Program-made: the position numbers and the translations under genes | The notes under the pieces: model-generated | What the model was told of the DNA's origin: nothing | Databases searched by the model: none | What the model saw: only the letters and a program-made list of their open reading frames with translations | NCBI RefSeq assembly: GCF_900199215.1 | Contig: NZ_FZQA01000005.1 | Coordinates: forward strand, 62,001 to 126,000 | DNA length: 64,000 nt | Direction: 5' to 3' | DNA from: Amphiplicatus metriothermophilus | GTDB taxonomy: Bacteria > Pseudomonadota > Alphaproteobacteria > Caulobacterales > Parvularculaceae | In this document: in pieces, positions 12,554 to 28,387 of the stretch | Layout of the letters: each line of letters begins with the position of its first letter | Numbering within the stretch: the stretch's first letter is position 1

Positions 12554-12578
12554 TCCCTAATCCCTAATCCCTGATCCC
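12554..12578 (-). repeat. Heptamer repeat with four GGG runs at the end of the LacI-family gene
   Basis: On the coding strand four GGG runs are separated by loops ATCA, ATTA and ATTA, a textbook G-quadruplex pattern of period 7. It spans the last codons and the TAG stop of the repressor gene. It could mark the mRNA 3' end or cause pausing, or be a chance telomere-like repeat. Confidence 0.55.
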
Positions 12579-13628
12579 GCTGGGCGGCGCGACGGATTCC
12601 CGCTCGATGAGCGCGACGTCGAGAATGTGCAGGCGCTCGGCCAGCTCCACCTCGCCGTGAATCAGACAATCCGTCAGTAGGGAAACCGATTTTCGCGCCA
12701 TGTCGGCGACCGGTTGCCGGATGGTGGTGAGGCGGGGGCACACGACTTCTGCAAGCGCGGTATCGTCGAAGCCCGCGACCGAGAGTTCGTCCGGAAGGCG
12801 CAGGCCGCGCTGGTGCGCGGCGGCGATCACGCCGGCGGCCATCTCGTCATTGCTGGCGAAAATGGCGGTCGGCGGCTCGGCGAGGGAGAGAAGCTGACGG
12901 GCCGCCTCCACGCCGGACTGAAAGGTGTAATCGCCGCTGGCGATGTAGTTCCGGTCGATATGCAGCTTGCGCCTGGCCATCGCCGCCTTGAATCCGGCGA
13001 GGCGCATGGCGCTCGACGTCTGGTTGCGCGCGCCCAAAATGAAGGCGATGCGCCGGTGGCCCTGCGCGATGAGATGCAGGGTCATGATCTTCGCGGCGTC
13101 GGCGTCATTGATGACGACGCTCAGATCCGCGCAGGAAAGATCCCCATGCGCGATGCGCACGAAAGGCAGGCCGATCTGGCGCAGGGCCGTAATGAGCTCG
13201 TGATTGTCGCTGAGGGGCGGGTTGACGATCAGGCCGTCGACCCCGATCCGCCTGACGAGTTCGGCGTAACGGGAAGGCTCGGACTCCAGCGCGGCGACGT
13301 CGATGGCTTCGACGACGAGATGATGGCCGAGCTCGCGGCACTCGTCGAGCGCGCCGTTGAGGAACTCGTTGAGATATCCATAGCTGGGATTGTGGTACAA
13401 AAAGCCGATCAGAAAGGATTTGCCGCCGGCGAGTCCCCGCGCCAGCATGTTCGGCCGGTAGTTGAGCTCCGCGATGGCCGCCTCGACCTTTTCCCGGGTC
13501 GAGGCCTTCACCACCGCCTTCTTGTTGAGCACGCGCGAGACGGTCATCTGCGACACGCCCGCCCGCTCGGCCACTTCCTTGATCGTCACGCCCTGGCGCT
13601 TGTTGCCGCGTTTAGAGTTTTCTTCCAT
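12564..13628 (-). CDS. LacI-family transcriptional repressor (candidate XylR)
   Basis: A 354-residue regulator of standard LacI architecture. The N-terminal helix-turn-helix (about residues 14-35) reads VTIKEVAERAGVSQMTVSRV. It is followed by the hinge helix region NYRPNMLARGLA, which reads the minor groove, and a periplasmic-binding-protein-like effector domain ending with FDDTALAEVVCPRLTTIRQP. It lies between the GH3 gene and the sensor kinase, in the centre of a locus with ten similar palindromes of LacI type, so it is the obvious candidate for binding them. The effector could be xylose, a xylo-oligosaccharide or a uronate. It resembles Caulobacter XylR in role, but the gene symbol is withheld because the ligand is unproven. 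Confidence 0.88.
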   Translation of the reverse strand: MEENSKRGNKRQGVTIKEVAERAGVSQMTVSRVLNKKAVVKASTREKVEAAIAELNYRPNMLARGLAGGKSFLIGFLYHNPSYGYLNEFLNGALDECRELGHHLVVEAIDVAALESEPSRYAELVRRIGVDGLIVNPPLSDNHELITALRQIGLPFVRIAHGDLSCADLSVVINDADAAKIMTLHLIAQGHRRIAFILGARNQTSSAMRLAGFKAAMARRKLHIDRNYIASGDYTFQSGVEAARQLLSLAEPPTAIFASNDEMAAGVIAAAHQRGLRLPDELSVAGFDDTALAEVVCPRLTTIRQPVADMARKSVSLLTDCLIHGEVELAERLHILDVALIERESVAPPSGIRD

Positions 13629-13786
13629 CGCGCGATCGCCTGCTACGGAATCATCGGCCCCCTTAATACGGCGCGTCGCAGAACATCGGTACCGGTTTTT
13701 TCGGCCGAATCGCCGCGTGCGCTGGGGGCGGCCCGGCCCGCGAAGGCCGCCGGTAGAATAGTTTTAACGTGTTTGCTTAATAATCG

Positions 13787-13830: not shown

Positions 13831-16800
13831 ATGTCGACCGACTTCTCTTCCGCTCTGCTGGCGGATGTCGGCCATGACGAGTGCCGCCTCGCGCTCATGC
13901 GCGAGACCGCGGGCGAGCGGCCGAGCTTCGCGCACAACGCCCGGTTCTCCTCGTCCGAGTTCCCGTCTTTGGCGGCGTTGTTGCGCCATTACCTCTCGCT
14001 CCTCGGGGATGAAACGCCGGAAGTTCTGGGGCTTTCGCTCGCCCAGCCGGTGACGCGGGACGTGATTCGGCTGCCGTCGCCGCAGTGGACGGTGGACAGG
14101 CGGGTGCTGCGCGACGGGTTCGGCTTCGCCGACGTCGTGTTCGTCAACGATACGAGCGCGGTGGCTTCCTCGCTGCCCTGGCTCGGCCCGCACGACGTGA
14201 AATCCATAGGGCGCGAGGAGCAGGGATTCAGCGTCTCGCCCGAAGGACGTTATAGCGTGATGAGCCTGCGTTACGGGCTCGGCATCGCGGCGCTCGTAGG
14301 AGAAGGCGGCGCGTTCGCCGTCGTCGATTCCGAGGGCGGACATTCCGGCTACGCGCCCCAGACGCCGGAGGAGATGCGCATCCTCGCCGAGATGTTGAAA
14401 CGCGAGCCGCATGTCAGCAAGGAGATGATTCTCGCCTCGGACGGGATTCGCGCTATCTATACCGCGCTTTGTGCGGCGAACGGCGACTTCGACGCCAAGC
14501 TGAGCCCGCTGGAGATCGTTCTTTACGGCAAGACCGGCGCGGAGGAGACCTGCCGGAAGGCGCTCGACCTCTATTTCGACATGCTCGCGTCGGCGGCCGG
14601 GGACGTGGCGCTCAATCTGTGCGCCGTCGACGGCCTTTTCATATGCGGCGAAATCCTGAACGGCGTCGCCGAAATCATGCCGCATGACCGGTTCAGAGAG
14701 ACCTTTCAGAGAAAAGGGTCGTTTACGGACTTCGTCGGACGCATTCCGACTTATGTCGTCTCGAATCCGAGCGCGCGCCTCATCGGCCTGGCGCGGCTCA
14801 TCTCCAAACGGATGGAGGCCCAACGGCGACGGGCGAAGGGAACGGATAATCCCGAAAAGCTCCTGGAGGAGATCACCGCCGCTATCGACCAGTCGATCAC
14901 GATCGTCGGCCCTGACCTCACCATCGTCGCCTGCACCGGCCAGCCCTGGTACAACCAGCCGGGCGCGCCCGGCGCGGCCCGGGCCGGGCAGTCCGCGGAA
15001 GCCTATCTTCGCGCGCTCGCCGAAGCCGGCCAGCTCGGCCTCGGCGAGGCGCGCCAGTGCGTCGACGGGATCGTCGAGAAGATGAAGGCGGGAGAACGCT
15101 TCGAATTCGCGCGCATGACGTTCGGGGGCCGGCTTCTGCACGCGCGCGCCGAGCCGCGCGAAGGGGGCGGCTTCATCATCATCGAGACCGATTACACCGA
15201 GCGGGATGCGAGAACGAGAGAGCTCGAAGGTTTGGCGGCGAATCTGCGCGAGGCGAAGATGAAGTCGGATGCGGCGAGCCGCGCCAAGTCCGAATTCCTC
15301 GCCAATATGAGCCATGAAATCCGCACCCCGCTCAACGGCGTTCTCGGCATGGCCGACGTTCTTCAGCGCACGCCGCTCAGCGAATCCCAGGCCGAGATCC
15401 TCGACGTCATCATCAAATCCGGGAACAGCCTGCTTACCGTCATCAACGACATCCTCGATTTCTCGAAGATCGAGGCGGGCAAGCTGCGGCTGAAGGAGGA
15501 TCCGTTCGATCTGCGCACGACGATCGAGGACGTGGCGGCGATGTTCGCCGCCCATGTGGAGAAGAAGGACGTGGAGCTGATGGTCCGCGTCGCGCCGGGA
15601 ACGCCGGCGAACCTTATCGGCGATGCGGGCCGGCTGCGTCAGGTGCTCACCAATATCGTCGGCAATGCGGTCAAGTTCACCGACAAGGGCCATATTCTCA
15701 TCGACGTGGCCGGGGCCCGCGAAGGCGGGCGCGCCAGACTCGCGATCGCGGTCAAGGACACTGGCTGCGGCATCCCGCCGGAAAAGATCGAGACCGTGTT
15801 CGACATGTTCGAGCAGGCGGACGGGTCCGCCACCCGCGCCCATCAGGGCACGGGCCTCGGCCTGGCCATCACGAAGCGCATCGTCGAGGCGATGGGCGGG
15901 GCGGTCAGGGCCGAAAGCGCCGTCGGAGAGGGGACGACCTTCCGCATCGATCTTGCGCTGCCGGTTCACGATCATCAGGAGGACGATCCGTGCTGCGCCG
16001 AGATCGATCCTGTGGACGTGTCCGGCGCGCGCGTTCTGGTCGTCGACGATCAGGAGGTCAACAGACAGATTCTGTGCGAGCAGCTGCAGGGTTGGGGCAT
16101 GACGCCGCTGTCGGCGGCGGGCGGCGAGGAGGCTCTTGCGACGCTCCTGGGCGAAAGGCGCGCGGGCGCCCCCGTCGACCTCGCCGTTCTCGATTACCAG
16201 ATGCCGGAGATGGACGGCCTCGCCCTCGCCCGGCGGATCAAGACGCATCCGCACCTTTCGGCGACGCCTCTGGTGCTGCTGACGTCCGTCGGCCATGTCG
16301 GCGATACGGACGATCGCGTTTATGAGGATTTCGCCGGCTATCTGGTGAAGCCGGCGCGCGCCGCCCAGCTTCTGGAGAACATTCGCCGCGCGCTGTCCGG
16401 CGGCTTCGTGCCCCGGCCCGCCGAATCCGCGCCGGCGCAGGAGCAAAAGCAGGCGGGCCGCGCGCCGGAAAGCGCTGAAACCGTCGCGGTCGACGATGAA
16501 GCGGAGCCCGCGCGTCCCGCCGCCAAAGCCGTTGCGCCGGCGCACGCCGCGCCGTGCGGGAACGGGGCGGCGCAGCCGCCGCAAGCCGACGAGGGCGGCA
16601 GGAAGATCAAGGTCTTCGTGGTCGAGGACAATCTCGTCAACCGAAGGGTCGTCGGCGAGATGCTGAAAAACTCCGGCTACGAACTTGTCGAGCTGGAGGA
16701 CGGCGAGAAGGCGGTGGCGGAATACATGAACGGGCCGCCCGACCTCATTCTCATGGACGTTTCCATGCCCAATCTCGACGGCTACGCCGCCACGCGCAAG

Positions 16801-16977
16801 ATCCGCGAGATCGAGAAGGCGCAAGGCCGGCCGGCCGGCGTTCCCATCATCGGCGTGACGGCCCACGCCATGCCGGAAGATCGCGCCAAATGCGCCGAAA
16901 GCGGGATGAACGACTATCTCGCCAAGCCGATCCGGCAGGAGGCGCTGGAGGCGGCGATCAGGCGGCACTGCGCCTAG
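13831..16977 (+). CDS. Hybrid histidine kinase with an N-terminal pseudo-glucokinase sensor domain
   Basis: A 1048-residue cytoplasmic sensor with no membrane segment. Residues 1-325 are a glucokinase-family domain. Asn106-Asp107, Glu168, His171 and Glu198 correspond to E. coli Glk N99, D100, E157, H160 and E187, with nearly identical spacing. The ATP loops are eroded: DVGGTN became DVGHDE and GPGTGLG became SLRYGLG. Then come a PAS-like region (about 345-465), a dimerisation and phosphoacceptor domain with His495 in [11 protein letters not shown], an ATPase domain with DTGCGIP and GTGLGLA, and two receiver domains (Asp788 and Asp976). It most likely binds a sugar in the dead kinase fold and signals through phosphorelay. 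No DNA-binding partner regulator is seen nearby. GGGGGAG precedes the ATG. Confidence 0.9.
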
Positions 16978-17130
16978 CGCCCGCCGCCGCGCCCGCGGCC
17001 GTCCGGTCATGGACAGGCCGCGTCCGGCCGGATCATAATGAAAAAGCGTTTCGCAATCGCCGGCGGCGCCGGGCCGGCCTTCACGGCCGTCCGCGGCGCG
17101 CGCGCCGAACAGCCGCGCAGGGAGCGGACA

Positions 17131-18036
17131 TTGCATCACAAGCCGCAGATCAGGAAGGAGGCGTCGCTGTCGAGACGGAGCTTCATCGCCGGCGCGGCGG
17201 GACTGGCGGCGGCGACGGCGTGCGGGCCCCTCCGCGCCGGCGAGAGGGCGCGCGCGATCGGCCTTCAGCTTTACACCATTCGCCGCGCCATGAGCGAGGA
17301 CGCGCCGGCGGCGCTCCGGCGCGTCGCCGAGATCGGGTACAGGCATGTCGAATTCGCCGGCTATTTCGGCATGGCGCCAGGCGCGCTCAGGACGCTCTTG
17401 TCCCATCTCGGCCTCGCCGCGCCGAGCGCGCACATGGACGCGCGCCTTCTGCGCGACGATCCGGGACCGCTCATCGACGCGGCGGCGCAGATCGGCCACG
17501 AATTCGTCGTGCTCGGATGGCTTCGCCCGGAAGACCGCCGCACGATCGATCAGTACAAGGCGTGGGCCGAGACGTGCAATCATGTCGCAGAGCGATGCCG
17601 CGCGGCCGGCCTGCGCTTCGCCTGGCATAATCACGACTTCGAGTTCCATCCGATCGGCGGCGTCGTCCCTTATGACGTTCTTCTCGAACGCGCCGATCCG
17701 GATCTCGTATCCTTCGAGCTTGACTTCTATTGGGCGCGCAAGGCGGGCCAGAACATTCTGGGTCTTCTTGAAAAGGCGCCGGCCCGCTTTCCTCTGTGCC
17801 ATGTCAAGGACATGGATCGGAAAGGGAACATGACCGACATCGGCGAGGGCGTCATCGACTTCGCAGGCGCGCTCGCAGACCGCGCTACGGCGGGGATCAA
17901 ACATTGTTTCGTCGAACGGGACGACGCCCCGGCGCCGTTCCGCACGGCCGAGCAGGGCCTGGCGGCGATGACGCGCATCCTCGAAGACGCCGGCGCGCGC
18001 GCGGACCGGGCGCGATCGCTGGAGAGCGAGCGATGA
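17131..18036 (+). CDS. Sugar phosphate isomerase/epimerase-like TIM-barrel protein, Tat-exported
   Basis: About 300 residues with a twin-arginine signal SRRSFIAGAAGLAAAT and a xylose-isomerase-like TIM-barrel (AP endonuclease 2 family). Key stretches are IGLQLYTIRRAM at the first strand, FAWHNHDFEFHP with metal-ligand histidines and Glu, FELDFYWARKAGQ and CHVKDMD. Family members isomerise, epimerise or dehydrate sugars. The reaction here is unknown. TTG 17131 with AGGGAG 7 bases upstream is preferred; ATG 17038 is an alternative that would bury the Tat motif about 46 residues in. The stop overlaps the next start (ATGA), so it is coupled to the cupin-like gene. Confidence 0.75.
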   Translation: MHHKPQIRKEASLSRRSFIAGAAGLAAATACGPLRAGERARAIGLQLYTIRRAMSEDAPAALRRVAEIGYRHVEFAGYFGMAPGALRTLLSHLGLAAPSAHMDARLLRDDPGPLIDAAAQIGHEFVVLGWLRPEDRRTIDQYKAWAETCNHVAERCRAAGLRFAWHNHDFEFHPIGGVVPYDVLLERADPDLVSFELDFYWARKAGQNILGLLEKAPARFPLCHVKDMDRKGNMTDIGEGVIDFAGALADRATAGIKHCFVERDDAPAPFRTAEQGLAAMTRILEDAGARADRARSLESER

Positions 18037-22162: not shown

Positions 22163-23683
22163 TCATCTGTATGGGAAGCCGTCGAAGGCGCAATGCCGAG
22201 CGATGAATTCTTCGTGCGGCGGCATGTGGCCGGCGCACGTCGCGATGGTCGCGCGAATATGATCGAGGCGCGCGCGCGTCTCCTCAATCGATAGAACGTC
22301 CGCGACCGGGTCGTACCCATTCGGGCGGATATTCTGCCCCGTCATGACGGCGAACCAGCTCGTGTCGTTGAAAAGCTCTTCGTTCTCACGAAAAATGCGG
22401 CCATAGCTTTTAAAAAGCCTTATTTTGTCCTGTAGATAGTCTGGGATGTTCATTTCACGAACATAATCCCAGAAAGGCTGCCGTCGCCGCTGCGTGGCCT
22501 TGTAATGAAGAATAATGAAATCGCGAATGCGTTCGAACTCGAACGCTGTGACGCGATTGTAGCGATCGATATCCGCCTGGTTGAAGCGGCGGTCCGGAAA
22601 CATCTGCAAGAGCTTGGCGACGCCGCTCTGGATGAGATGGATGCTCGTCGACTCAAGCGGCTCGATGAAGCCGGCGGCGAGCCCGATGGCTACGCAATTC
22701 TTGATCCAGAAAAGCTTTCGTCGACCCGGCGTAAAGTTGAGAAAACGCGGGTCGGCGAGGGGCTTGCCGTCAAGGTTTGCGAGCAGAATCCCGGCTGCTT
22801 TATCGTCGTCGATATAACCGCGCGAGAAAACGAGCCCGTTGCCTATGCGATGTTGAAGAGGAATTCGCCATTGCCAACCGGCTTCGCGCGCCGTCGATCG
22901 GGTGAAGGGCGTCGGCGGGCCGGCGCTTTCGCATGGGACAGCGACGGCAGCGTCGCACGGCAACCAGTGCGACCAGTCAATATAGCCCGCGCCGAGTTTC
23001 TGATCGATCAAGAGGCCGCGAAAGCCTGAACAATCGATGAAGAGGTCGCCTTCAACGGTGCAGCCATCCTCGAGAATGACGGCTTCGATATAACCGGTTT
23101 GCGAATTCTGCACGGCGTCGACGATTTTTCCCTCTCGGCGTGCGACGCCGCGCGCTTGCGCGTAGCGGCGCAAGTACTGCGCATAAAGGCCGGCATCGAA
23201 ATGGAAAGCGTAAGCAATCTTACTTAAAGGCGAATTGCCTGCATTGACGGGGCGCATGAACTTGCCATGCCTGGCCGCCTGCGCTTGAAGGGAATATTGC
23301 TCCAGTGTGCGCGCAGTCCAGTCGGGATGCGCCTTTAGGAAGAAGGCGTGAAAGGATACGCCTTCCATGTCGAGGCCATAAGTTCCGAAGGGGTGGATAT
23401 AGCGCTCGCCCGGCGCGCCCCAGTCAACGAACTCGATGCCCAGTTTGAAGGTGGCGCGCGTTTCGCGCACGAATTCGTTTTCTTCTATCCCGAGCGTACG
23501 ATTATAGGTTCCGATCTGAGGGATGGTGGCCTCGCCGACGCCGACCGAGCCGATTTGCTCGGATTCGACAAGCTCGATTTCGCAGTAGTTATTTCTGAGG
23601 ATTTTCGCGCAGGCCGCGGCTGTCATCCACCCGGCGGTGCCGCCGCCCACGATGACGATTTTCCGTATACGCGTGTTGTTCAC
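22163..23683 (-). CDS. Flavin-dependent tryptophan-halogenase family protein, copy 1
   Basis: A 506-residue FAD-dependent halogenase-like protein. It has GGGTAGWM at the FAD-binding N-terminus, GVGEATIP, FKLGIEFVDW with the lysine matching the catalytic Lys of PrnA, and the WQWRIPLQHR signature (WxWxIP) that separates halogenases from monooxygenases. The start is GTG 23683, which overlaps the TGA of the next upstream gene (GTGA). It is last of a four-gene operon on this strand. Family members act on indoles or free tryptophan with a flavin reductase, and no reductase gene is seen nearby. The real substrate of this TonB-associated subgroup is unknown. Confidence 0.9.
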   Translation of the reverse strand: MNNTRIRKIVIVGGGTAGWMTAAACAKILRNNYCEIELVESEQIGSVGVGEATIPQIGTYNRTLGIEENEFVRETRATFKLGIEFVDWGAPGERYIHPFGTYGLDMEGVSFHAFFLKAHPDWTARTLEQYSLQAQAARHGKFMRPVNAGNSPLSKIAYAFHFDAGLYAQYLRRYAQARGVARREGKIVDAVQNSQTGYIEAVILEDGCTVEGDLFIDCSGFRGLLIDQKLGAGYIDWSHWLPCDAAVAVPCESAGPPTPFTRSTAREAGWQWRIPLQHRIGNGLVFSRGYIDDDKAAGILLANLDGKPLADPRFLNFTPGRRKLFWIKNCVAIGLAAGFIEPLESTSIHLIQSGVAKLLQMFPDRRFNQADIDRYNRVTAFEFERIRDFIILHYKATQRRRQPFWDYVREMNIPDYLQDKIRLFKSYGRIFRENEELFNDTSWFAVMTGQNIRPNGYDPVADVLSIEETRARLDHIRATIATCAGHMPPHEEFIARHCAFDGFPYR

Positions 23684-25224
23684 TTGCTCTGTTCCCTGAC
23701 TGGCTTCGCTGCTGCGCAGAAGCGGTCGATATAGGCTTGATGACGGGGCATTTTCTCCGCCGTCGAGCGGATGAGCGCATGCATTCGCATGAGCTGGCCG
23801 CGGATCTGGGCGTAATCCAGCGCGTCGACGAACGGATCCCATGTGCGGGGTCGGATATTTTGCCCCAGCAGAACAGACAGCCAGTTAGATTCGCCAAATA
23901 GCTCATCCTGGAAACGGAAAATTCTGCCCTTCGAACGGAAAAGCTCGATCTTAGCTTTCAGCGTTTCAGGGATCGGAATCGAGCGCGTATAGCGCCAGAA
24001 CTCAGAATCATCCCGCTCTGTCGCATGATAATGGAGAATCAGAAAGTCTCTTATTTGCTCAAATTGAAGCGCCGTCAGCCTATTGTATTCGTCCCGCTCT
24101 ATCGGGTTGAATTCGCCGTCGGGAAAAAGCGCGATCAGTTTCGAAACGCCGGCCTGGATAAGATGGATGCTGGTCGACTCGAGCGGCTCGAGAAATCCGG
24201 CGGAGAGCCCGATGGCTACGCAGTTCTTCTTCCAGAACTCCTTTCGCCGTCCGGCCGTGAATTTCAGATAACGCGGCTCGCCTGTTAGCGGAGAATCGAG
24301 ACCGGCGACAAGCTGCGCCATCGCCGTTTCATCGTCCATATGCTCGCTGCAGTAAACGCAGCCATTGCCTGTGCGATGCTGAAGCGGAATGCGCCAACGC
24401 CAGCCCGCCGAATGCGCGCTGGCGCGCGTATAGGGAATGGGATCGCGGACGCGCTCGCTGGGCGCGGCCACGGCACGATCGCAAGGCAGCCAACGCGTCC
24501 AACTTTCATAGCCAGCGTGAAGGGCTTGTTCGATCAGGAGGCCGCGGAAACCCGAGCAGTCAATAAAGAACTCGCCGCCGATTTTTTCGCCGCTCTCAAG
24601 CCTGATCGCCTCGATGAAGCCGTCCTCGCTGCGGAGAGTCGTATCGACGACTTTGCCTTCAATGCGCTTGACGCCGCGCGCTTCGGCGTAGCGGCGCAGA
24701 TAGGCGGCGTACTGGGTTGCATCGAAATGGAAAGCGTAGGCCAGACTCGACATCACCGATCGCGGATCAGTGCTGGGCTTGAGAAAGCGCTCCAGCTTCG
24801 CCGCTACGGCGGAGAGGTTAAATTCATCAATATACGGAATATCATCTTCCAGGCTATAAAGCTTGAGCCATATTTGATAGAATTTAACTGCTTCTATATC
24901 AAGGCCATATTCGCCGAAAGGATGGATATAACGATGACCGCGCCGAGTCCAGTCGACGAACTCGATGCCGAGCTTGAAGGTCGCCTGGGTTTTTGCGACG
25001 AAGTCGTTTTCGTCAATGCCCAACAGTTTGTTGAATGCGGTGATCGGCGGGATTGTCGCTTCGCCGACGCCTATCGCGCCGATTTCATCGGACTCGATCA
25101 AGGTTATCGATGAATGGCCGTTCCGCATCAGACGAGAGAGCGCAGCGGCGGTCATCCATCCGGCGGTTCCCCCGCCGATAATGACGATCCGCCTGATCGC
25201 AGAGCGGGACAGGGCGTCAGTCAT
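23680..25224 (-). CDS. Flavin-dependent tryptophan-halogenase family protein, copy 2
   Basis: A 514-residue paralogue with all diagnostic motifs: GGGTAGWM (about residues 17-24), GVGEATIP (52-59), Lys84 in ATFKLGIEF at the position expected for the catalytic lysine, and WRWRIPLQHR. NCVAIGLSAGFLEPLESTSI is the C-terminal FAD and active-site region found in all intact copies. Its ATG overlaps the TGA of the copy 3 gene (ATGA), and its own stop overlaps copy 1, indicating strict co-translation. No tryptophan-biosynthetic or natural-product genes lie nearby, so a role tied to the TonB receptor is more likely than antibiotic synthesis. Confidence 0.9.
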   Translation of the reverse strand: MTDALSRSAIRRIVIIGGGTAGWMTAAALSRLMRNGHSSITLIESDEIGAIGVGEATIPPITAFNKLLGIDENDFVAKTQATFKLGIEFVDWTRRGHRYIHPFGEYGLDIEAVKFYQIWLKLYSLEDDIPYIDEFNLSAVAAKLERFLKPSTDPRSVMSSLAYAFHFDATQYAAYLRRYAEARGVKRIEGKVVDTTLRSEDGFIEAIRLESGEKIGGEFFIDCSGFRGLLIEQALHAGYESWTRWLPCDRAVAAPSERVRDPIPYTRASAHSAGWRWRIPLQHRTGNGCVYCSEHMDDETAMAQLVAGLDSPLTGEPRYLKFTAGRRKEFWKKNCVAIGLSAGFLEPLESTSIHLIQAGVSKLIALFPDGEFNPIERDEYNRLTALQFEQIRDFLILHYHATERDDSEFWRYTRSIPIPETLKAKIELFRSKGRIFRFQDELFGESNWLSVLLGQNIRPRTWDPFVDALDYAQIRGQLMRMHALIRSTAEKMPRHQAYIDRFCAAAKPVREQSK

Positions 25225-26729
25225 GAACCGGACCTTTCCGGCGCTGTCGCGCGGGCCTGGCGCAGATAAATCATCTGGTCCGGCATCGCGCGAACGGTCT
25301 CGGCTATTTTCTCGCGCAGCGCGGCGAGACGGGCGTCAAGCATGGTTTCGGACAAGCCGTCTGCGAACGGATCATATCGTTCCGGATTTACTCCGGCGCC
25401 GAGTAAACTCGCAATCCACATTTCCTGATCGTAGATTTCCTCATCGAATTGCACGATCTGCCCGCGGCTGCGAAACTGCTCGATCTTGCGCCTGAGGTGG
25501 GGCGAAAGCGCTTTCTCCGCGCCGGCGGCCCAGGCATGCTGGCCAAGCTGTTCCGCCAGCCAGTACTGCAAAGTCACAAAATCATTGCACCGCTCAAACA
25601 CGTCGCTCATGATCCGGTTATATTCGTCCGTTTCGGCGCCGCTTTGCGAAGCTGGCAAGAGCTCGACCAGCGTTTTGAGCCCGGCGATCAGCGTCGCCGG
25701 CGCAGGGCAAAATAGCGGATCGAGACGGCAGGCCGACTCTCCAAGAGCCGCCACGTTGCCGATAGCCGGCGCGCGCCGGCCGCGGACAATTCGCTTCGCC
25801 TCCAGATTTTCCAGCGGACCGTGTTCGCGCGCCAGCGCATCGAGGCTGACCGCCCTGCTGTCATAGCCGATCATGCAGCGCGCGCCGTCCTGAAAAGGTA
25901 TGTCCATGCGCCAGCAGGTCTTCGCCGCGACGATGCGGGTCATGGAGGGCGAAGCGACCGACGAGGCGGCGAAAGTTATGACGCTATCGACGGCGCCAGG
26001 CGAGGGGAAGGAGGTCCAGGTCGCGCCCAGCGCGCCCTCGATGAGGGGAGCGGCGGCGCTGGCGCAGTCAAGCGCCAGGAAGGCGGGAATGATTTCGCCG
26101 TCGGCAAGCCTGACCGCATCAATCCCCTCTCGGCGCTCCTTCAGTAAGGCGTTCGCATAGCGCGCCCCGGCCTTTTTTGCGCCGTAATGCATCGCATAGC
26201 GACGCATGTAATCAGTATACAATTCAACGTCAACATGATAGCCGTATCTGTATGTCGAGCGGATATCTGCGGGATCGCGTGAAGGGTGTGCGAACTTCCC
26301 CGCGCGAGCGGCGGTTGCAGAAAGCGAGTAGCTGTCGAAGCGGTCTCCGCCCTTGACGATTCGCTGACGTTTTCGCCAGCATTGATGGAACGCAATCGTT
26401 TCGATCGGCGCGCCATATGCGCCAAAGGCGACCACGTAGTCTTTTCCAGGCTTCGTCCAGTCCAGAAAATGTGCGCCCAGCGAAAACGTTCCTCGGCAGT
26501 AACGGAGAAGGTCTCGCTCGTCGACGGCGAGTTCGGCGTGCAATGAACTCGTCGCCGGGCCGGCGAAAACGGCACAGTGGTCTTGCATCTCTTCGCGCGG
26601 GGGCGCGCAGACCACAATGTCATACCCGGCGCGCAATTTGCGTGTAAGATAAGCTGCGCTCAGCCATGCGTCGAATCCGTCGCCGATGATGACGATGTTG
26701 CGCGTCTCGCCGTGCGATTGGTTTGGCAT
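25221..26729 (-). CDS. Degenerate tryptophan-halogenase-like protein, copy 3
   Basis: A 502-residue paralogue that aligns along its length but has lost key motifs. GGGTAGWM is IIGDGFDAWL, GVGEATIP is absent (GPATSSLH region), the catalytic lysine is Ser83 in GTFSLGAHF, and WxWxIP is CWRMDIP. It is unlikely to halogenate. The frame is intact with no stop or frameshift and the ATGA overlap with its neighbour is kept, so it is probably selected as a non-catalytic partner or binding protein, not a recent pseudogene. The next upstream stop is 5 bases away, so it is fully within the operon. Confidence 0.82.
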   Translation of the reverse strand: MPNQSHGETRNIVIIGDGFDAWLSAAYLTRKLRAGYDIVVCAPPREEMQDHCAVFAGPATSSLHAELAVDERDLLRYCRGTFSLGAHFLDWTKPGKDYVVAFGAYGAPIETIAFHQCWRKRQRIVKGGDRFDSYSLSATAARAGKFAHPSRDPADIRSTYRYGYHVDVELYTDYMRRYAMHYGAKKAGARYANALLKERREGIDAVRLADGEIIPAFLALDCASAAAPLIEGALGATWTSFPSPGAVDSVITFAASSVASPSMTRIVAAKTCWRMDIPFQDGARCMIGYDSRAVSLDALAREHGPLENLEAKRIVRGRRAPAIGNVAALGESACRLDPLFCPAPATLIAGLKTLVELLPASQSGAETDEYNRIMSDVFERCNDFVTLQYWLAEQLGQHAWAAGAEKALSPHLRRKIEQFRSRGQIVQFDEEIYDQEMWIASLLGAGVNPERYDPFADGLSETMLDARLAALREKIAETVRAMPDQMIYLRQARATAPERSGS

Positions 26730-26734
26730 AAGTC

Positions 26735-28252
26735 TCAGACGGTTCCAGGCGCAGGACAGTAGCGCCGAATGAAATCGCTATGGTCGGGAAGGGACTCCGC
26801 CGTTTTCCTGATCAGGTTTCTCATGGCCGACAAAGTCTTTTCGAGTTCGTCTTCGGCGATGAATTCGGCGCGGGGATCGTACATGTCAGGCATGACCCGC
26901 TGCCCCAGATACACTGCGATCCAGCTCGGGTGCAGAAAAAGGCCGTCTTTGTATTTTACGACCACCCCGCGCTTGCGAAACAATGTCATTTTATAGGCGA
27001 GCGAGTCCGGGATTTTCATTGTACGTACGTAATCCCAGAATGGCGTGTCGTCGCGCTCGGTGGCATGGTAATGCAGGATGAGAAAATCACGGATTCGCTC
27101 ATACTCGAGATCCATCGCTCGGTTGAATTCGTCGATATCGCAGGCGCGAAAATCGCGATCCGGGAAGAGTTCAAGCAGCTTCGTGACGCTCGCCTGGATC
27201 AAATAAATGCTGGTCGATTCCAGCGGTTCGAGAAAGCCGCTTGAAAGGCCGATCGAAACGCAATTCTTCACCCATTGTCTGCGCCGCTTGCCGGCGCGGA
27301 AGCGCAGAAAATTTGGTTCCGCCCGCGGTCTTCCCTCGAGGCTGGCCATCAACGTTTGCGCCGCCTCGTCGTCGCTGACGTGCTCGCTGCAATAGACATA
27401 GCCATTGCCGACGCGGTGCTGAAGCGGGATTCGCCATTGCCAGCCGGCGCCGCGCGCCGTCGCGCGCGTATAGGGCAGAGACGGCGCCGCGTTTTCGCAT
27501 GGAACGGCGACCGCCCGGTCGCAGGGCAGGACTGCCGACCAGTCCTCGAAGCCGGCTTTCAGCGTCTGCTCGATCAGGAGGCCGCGAAAACCGGAGCAGT
27601 CAACGAACAGATCGGCCTCGACTCGCCTTCCGTCCTCGGTTTTGACCGCTTCGATGAATCCATCCTCTCCACGCTGTATTACGGTGGTGATTTTTCCCTC
27701 GATACGGCGCACGCCGCACGCTTCGGCGAAGCGTCGCAAGTATTTCGCATAAAGGCCTGCGTCGAACTGGTACGCATATGAGAAAGACGACATGACGGAG
27801 CGCTCGTCTTCGACCGGCATGGCGAAGCGTCCAAACTCGGAAATCATGACTGGCGCGGAGAATTCGCCAATGCGCCATGCGCGCCCCCGTTGGCGCAGCC
27901 TCAACCAGTAGTGGTGGAAGGGAACTCCCTTGATGTCGCGGCCATAGTCGCCGAAAGGATGGATGTAGGCGTCGCCCTTACGCGCCCAATCGCGAAACTC
28001 GATGCCGAGTTTGAACGTTGCGGCTGTCTGGGCCATGAAGTCGGCCTCGTCGATCCCGAGCCGACGATTGAAAAATCGGATATGGGGCAGCGTCGCTTCG
28101 CCGACGCCGACCGTGCCGATTTGGTCTGACTCCAAGAGCGTCACGTCGATCTTGAGCGGCGCGAGAAGCTTTCCCATCGCAGCCGCCGTCATCCATCCTG
28201 CGGTTCCGCCGCCGACGATCAAAATGCGTTTTATCAAAGCGCTCTGGCTCAT
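26735..28252 (-). CDS. Flavin-dependent tryptophan-halogenase family protein, copy 4 (first gene of operon)
   Basis: A roughly 505-residue intact halogenase-like protein with GGGTAGWM, GVGEATLP, FKLGIEFRDW with the expected catalytic lysine, and WQWRIPLQHR. It is the promoter-proximal gene of the four-copy operon, divergent from the TonB receptor. ATG 28252 is used because the FAD-binding strand begins about 8 residues later; the frame stays open to 28384, but that would add a tail of low-complexity basic sequence and approach the operators. Two operators at 28388-28424 lie in the shared upstream region. Confidence 0.9.
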   Translation of the reverse strand: MSQSALIKRILIVGGGTAGWMTAAAMGKLLAPLKIDVTLLESDQIGTVGVGEATLPHIRFFNRRLGIDEADFMAQTAATFKLGIEFRDWARKGDAYIHPFGDYGRDIKGVPFHHYWLRLRQRGRAWRIGEFSAPVMISEFGRFAMPVEDERSVMSSFSYAYQFDAGLYAKYLRRFAEACGVRRIEGKITTVIQRGEDGFIEAVKTEDGRRVEADLFVDCSGFRGLLIEQTLKAGFEDWSAVLPCDRAVAVPCENAAPSLPYTRATARGAGWQWRIPLQHRVGNGYVYCSEHVSDDEAAQTLMASLEGRPRAEPNFLRFRAGKRRRQWVKNCVSIGLSSGFLEPLESTSIYLIQASVTKLLELFPDRDFRACDIDEFNRAMDLEYERIRDFLILHYHATERDDTPFWDYVRTMKIPDSLAYKMTLFRKRGVVVKYKDGLFLHPSWIAVYLGQRVMPDMYDPRAEFIAEDELEKTLSAMRNLIRKTAESLPDHSDFIRRYCPAPGTV

Positions 28253-28387
28253 TACCGTGCGATCCGGATGCGACGCGTTTGGCTGTTCTCGGGCAGCCCG
28301 TTGCGCGCCATGAACTTGCAGCGTTCGACGATAGCGAGGCGCGTCGAAACGGGGTGTTGGATTTTTGCCATACCTGCGGCCCAAGTG

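Follow-up and report, generated by a model that had tools for sequence, protein, structure and literature searches.

Sensors derived from sugar kinases have precedents: yeast Gal3 and plant hexokinase 1 are of this kind, as are the repressors NagC and Mlc, which belong to the ROK group and carry a DNA-binding head. To our knowledge, histidine kinases that read free intracellular sugar are little described. NagC and Mlc are presented as sugar-kinase superfamily members acting as transcription repressors (PMC12696579). The protein examined here differs from them in being a PF02685 glucokinase on a phosphorelay protein: Pfam returned PF02685 and neither a ROK nor a DNA-binding family, so the DNA-binding head on a ROK kinase that marks those repressors is missing. 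Bacteroides HTCS are histidine kinases tied to polysaccharide use (PMC10766802). In HTCS, the ligand is bound by a transmembrane protein, whereas the present protein has no membrane segment or DNA-binding output; Pfam and hydropathy analysis recovered none of the HTCS features (membrane segments, an external sensor and a DNA-binding output). HexR–glucokinase bifunctional proteins (NCBIfam PRK14101) likewise fuse a PF02685 glucokinase to a regulator, but in the examples judged by eye (L106, L107, L113 and L114), this is a C-terminal RpiR-like regulator and there is no histidine kinase. Their first nucleotide loop reads DVGGTN in L113 and L114 and is variant in L106 and L107 (by eye, GGLY and GATH instead of DxGGTN).

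We analyzed a 64,000-nucleotide stretch of the Amphiplicatus metriothermophilus genome (G000), hereafter the window. A single open reading frame at 13831–16977 on the plus strand, with an ATG start preceded by a ribosome-binding-like stretch (AGGGGGAG), encodes a protein of 1048 residues. Pfam matched glucokinase (PF02685) at residues 9–324 (E 6.8e-63), PAS_7 at residues 352–460 (14884–15210, plus strand; E 8.6e-9), HisKA at residues 485–550 (15283–15480, plus), HATPase_c at residues 597–710 (15619–15960, plus) and Response_reg in two stretches. The better of these two covers residues 928–1044 (16612–16962, plus; Asp976), and the first receiver spans roughly residues 733–850 by boundaries that we set (16027–16380, plus; Asp788). 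The proposed input domain, a degenerate glucokinase domain of residues 1–335, occupies 13831–14835 on the plus strand and was delimited using Pfam, matches to solved structures, alignment, column counts and model superposition. The defining motifs of a hybrid sensor histidine kinase were all found, namely the phospho-acceptor histidine of HisKA (H495 in NMSHEIRTP), the N and G boxes of the HATPase domain and the receiver aspartates 788 and 976. No membrane segment was detected in the 1048-residue protein: the highest 19-residue Kyte–Doolittle mean was 1.54, the usual cut for a membrane segment being about 1.6. The glucokinase-headed kinase is therefore apparently soluble, as predicted from its sequence. 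The preliminary description had proposed exactly this fusion of glucokinase, PAS-like, HisKA, ATPase and two receiver domains free of membrane segments, and the domain, motif and hydropathy analyses agree with it. Its further remark that it knew of no described histidine kinase with this architecture also stands, in that we recognized no glucokinase–histidine kinase protein in the literature searched, most subscription papers lying outside its coverage.

The glucokinase identity of the first ~325 residues, another early claim, was supported by both sequence and predicted structure. Bacterial glucokinases were the nearest solved sequences (E 3e-42 for 3vpz and E 7.4e-37 for E. coli 1q18/1sz2). 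For residues 1–336, an AlphaFold2 model built from four alignment rows and of moderate confidence (mean pLDDT 66.1, pTM 0.61), placed 3vpz, 1q18 and 1sz2 in the top Foldseek ranks and superposed on the E. coli glucokinase–glucose complex 1sz2 (TM 0.77/0.80, rmsd 3.9, 28% identity). This model was weak at residues 126–175 and 258–283, and that of a longer piece (residues 1–482) was poor (pLDDT 58.6, low TM). Compared with E. coli glucokinase (PF02685, 1SZ2), the window protein shares the fold and has five sugar contacts in register by alignment, but differs in three changed nucleotide-site elements and in its fusion to a hybrid kinase. The sugar contacts are N106, D107, E168, H171 and E198, corresponding to N99, D100, E157, H160 and E187 of E. 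coli (the E. coli residue numbers presuppose an 11-residue tag). In the first phosphate loop, G12-T13-N14 of E. coli is replaced by H15-D16-E17 (DVGGTN to DVGHDE); in the second, G136-T137 is replaced by R147-Y148 (GTG to RYG). Both glycine loops had been described as broken, which proved correct, and a third nucleotide site is changed as well, with G263 of E. coli replaced by E274 (GG to GE at 273–274). Hence, of the characteristics of a catalytic bacterial glucokinase, PF02685 homology, the fold and, by alignment, the glucose contacts with the catalytic aspartate are present, and DxGGTN, GTG and the nucleotide-proximal GG are absent. The front domain appears, from these residues, to have lost its grip on ATP and kept its sugar pocket, and thus probably reports intracellular sugar rather than consuming it.

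We searched 62 Parvularculaceae genomes using the glucokinase domain and a profile of the fusions as queries. The fusion occurs in five of them (G000, G050, G052, G057 and G058), and stand-alone relatives with the same loop pattern were found in three further genomes (one each in G009 and G010, two in tandem in G016), so the glucokinase–HisKA fusion suggested by the single locus does recur. Among the 66 glucokinase-domain matches, the GG pair of the first loop was missing in these nine proteins and kept in the other 57, one of which is a partial frame and a few of which vary at single positions (e.g., A for T in L030). Every one of the eight carrier genomes also encodes another glucokinase with intact GGTN and GTG loops. 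In a midpoint-rooted tree of 78 rows, the nine proteins formed one clade (support 100/99) with 69 other glucokinases outside; within it, G050 lies on a long branch at the base, and the other four fusions and the four stand-alone copies are sisters; with this rooting, the change may have run from fusion to stand-alone or the reverse. The stand-alone forms adjoin ffh in all three genomes, which represent two genera (ffh identified by Pfam in G009 and by eye in G010 and G016). In G016, the two tandem proteins next to ffh (L060:6168-8275) both have broken nucleotide loops.

The group appears narrowly distributed. The window's genus is represented by eight other genomes (72–99% complete), none of which yielded the fusion. 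No further match covering the PAS domain was among the matches listed for three overlapping samples, namely 398 genomes of the order (E up to 1e-30), 385 of the class and 398 of the phylum, at most four candidates per genome being scored in the phylum search and in one of the class searches. Among plasmids, 61 records matched and none covered 80% of the query, and viral contigs yielded no relative. A scan of genome contigs used one narrow pattern and is no proof of absence. Part of the long glucokinase frames from the three samples was opened: by eye, the eight loci opened from the order and phylum contained no histidine kinase, and neither did L058 and L059. The frames inspected comprised HexR-type fusions in appearance (L106, L107, L113 and L114), a HexR-like tail behind a spurious-looking upstream extension (L104), a plain glucokinase (L105) and glucokinases with spurious-looking upstream extensions (L111, L112, L058 and L059).

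To quantify the loss of conserved positions, we compared the nine proteins with 66 distinct other glucokinases, that is, all other distinct alignment rows after dropping duplicates and identical sequences, none being removed for its motifs; 34 glucokinases fetched later stand outside this count. In 51 columns, conservation among the 66 reached 90% or more; the column of E. coli N14 fell below this cut and was left out. The sugar-contact and nucleotide columns were picked from the list in the preliminary description and from recall, not measured on a structure. The nine proteins retained 39 of the 45 sugar-contact cells, 6 of the 54 nucleotide-loop cells and 230 of the 360 others. Sugar and nucleotide columns differed when permuted by column (p 0.002). 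Compared with the full set of 51, loss was unusually high in the nucleotide columns (P 0.00025) and retention modestly raised in the sugar columns (P 0.043, the nine sequences being related). We place no weight on a Fisher test across cells (9e-15), in which related sequences count as independent. The pattern of dead loops and a kept pocket thus extends beyond the window to nine proteins and sets them apart, column by column, from the 66 other glucokinases.

That the domain is still an active or weakly active glucokinase, coupling sugar phosphorylation to signaling, is very improbable. In its favor, the catalytic base D107 is kept in the window protein and in six of the nine; however, it is missing in the G057 and G058 fusions and in one stand-alone copy, the changes to DVGHDE, RYG and GE fall, apart from the N of GGTN, in columns where the 66 glucokinases show at least 90% conservation, and the intact-loop second glucokinase is present in eight of eight carriers. 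Loss of glucokinase catalytic activity seems probable.

The sugar side is itself not uniform. N106, E168 and H171 are invariant in all nine proteins, whereas D107 and E198 are each kept in six, and the G058 fusion lacks both; the early claim of five preserved contacts accordingly holds in register for the window protein but only in part for the group. In addition, the canonical T at position 82 is kept in two of the nine proteins, and the canonical N at 83, F at 108, R at 199 and G at 203 in none. With five further conserved positions lost in seven to nine of the proteins, the active-site region is not simply untouched, and the D107 and E198 changes suggest that some of the proteins may bind a different ligand or none. 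A sensor or scaffold whose old pocket takes not free sugar but a sugar phosphate, some other metabolite or a partner protein would fit this variation and the lack of any window sugar gene near the other four fusions. We nevertheless consider such a ligand unlikely, given that N106, E168 and H171 never vary in the nine proteins, unlike the nucleotide loops.

Pairwise identity among the five fusions was 70–88% for HisKA and 59–75% for HATPase, compared with 28–44% for the glucokinase domain and 22–52% for PAS. Such faster divergence at the front could mean that the glucokinase domain is a decaying passenger of structural use only and that the PAS domain is the real sensor. The window genome also encodes a PAS_7-HisKA-HATPase-REC-REC paralogue (G000:C15; 1168 residues) that is 41% identical over residues 320–1047, which makes this C-terminal part common to both proteins; its N-terminus is different and, read by eye, has PAS-like repeats and hydrophobic segments that probably span the membrane in place of the glucokinase. 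The paralogue, having PAS domains and no glucokinase, lends the passenger idea some weight, but we judge it quite improbable, since open frames are preserved over deep divergence in five genomes, the retention on the sugar side is non-random and three genomes from two genera maintain stand-alone copies close to ffh.

We consider it likely, on these comparisons of sequence, that a dead glucokinase, deprived of ATP binding and catalysis and with its sugar pocket kept, serves as the cytoplasmic sugar sensor of the hybrid kinase. A glucokinase that lost both functions would now head the PAS_7-HisKA-HATPase-REC-REC chain. Hexokinase-fold enzymes close on sugar, and binding of a free cytoplasmic sugar, most likely glucose or a similar hexose, may close the two-lobed glucokinase domain. 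D107 is a contact of the distal sugar hydroxyls, and its retention in the window protein weakly favors a hexose over xylose. Closure could then be passed through the PAS domain and the pre-HisKA helix (residues 456–490) and alter autophosphorylation of H495, from which phosphate might travel to the receivers, a separate Hpt protein and an unlinked response regulator, the relay partner and target genes being our conjecture. Three Hpt matches were found in G000, two of them in short frames, and there is no response regulator among the 20 annotated neighbors of the kinase gene. A short Hpt-domain protein is encoded near TRAP-transporter-like genes (L110:3708-4052, G000:C8; by eye).

We give about even odds to the broader proposal that a lineage-restricted family of glucokinase-derived cytoplasmic sugar receptors arose in Parvularculaceae and works both fused to histidine kinases and free-standing; here too, a sugar kinase would have independently become a sensor, in this instance one wired to a phosphorelay. 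The group would exemplify an enzyme that became a receptor, one bacterial family containing its intact, fused and stand-alone forms. Because the input domain derives from a well-understood enzyme, E. coli glucokinase can guide predictions of its ligand, closure motion and mutants, and the intact glucokinase in all eight carriers serves as an internal control that makes the order of events testable.

The kinase gene had also been placed inside a xylan regulon. Its neighbors in the window encode GH9, TRAP transporter parts, an MFS sugar transporter, GH3, a LacI-family regulator, a TIM-barrel protein, two Cupin_8 proteins, GH10, GH43, four tryptophan-halogenase-family proteins, a TonB receptor and GH115, and the GH9, GH3, GH10, GH43 and GH115 genes indicate that the xylan setting is real at this locus. 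It does not extend to the other fusions: when 25 window protein queries (23 from sugar-locus neighbors and 2 from the kinase) were compared by tblastn with 20 kb of surrounding sequence for each of the remaining four, no window sugar gene was found, and the only matches were to the fusion or, in G050, to another kinase. In G057 and G058, the fusion has carB as a neighbor; in G050, it is flanked by serine acetyltransferase and NUDIX genes. On contig C1 of G057, the genome's own xylan locus lies at about 0.10 Mb, some 0.84 Mb from the fusion at about 0.95 Mb. Conversely, G019 and G042 have a matching xylan locus (GH43-GH10-LacI-MFS) with no kinase block, and their counterpart of the window LacI, 75% identical, sits beside GH10 with the kinase absent. 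After this comparison, we rejected the xylan regulon as a general inference about the regulated target. In G052, the gene 5′ of the fusion, on the same strand, encodes a protein of 1176 residues with PAS and HATPase_c domains (L052:5956-9486).

Within the window, the LacI gene (12564–13628, minus strand; identified by annotation and locus comparison) is divergent from the kinase gene, and an imperfect palindrome between them (13682–13699) is a possible LacI operator. It was discarded as a shared operator for the xylan genes because the window contains a single copy, and scanning 14 intergenic stretches for such an operator yielded nothing consistent. Sixty bases 3′ of the kinase gene, a xylose-isomerase-like TIM-barrel protein is annotated (AP_endonuc_2; 17038–18036, plus strand). 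It occurs in 6 of the 62 family genomes, five of which also have a glucokinase-like sensor protein (hypergeometric 5e-5); we draw no conclusion from this, as the protein is not beside the sensor elsewhere, the genomes are related and the test was post hoc. Four consecutive tryptophan-halogenase-family genes lie beside the TonB receptor gene within the sugar locus (22163–28384, minus strand), and the one at 25221–26729 is far more divergent than the others (E 2.7e-76 versus 6e-194 or better).
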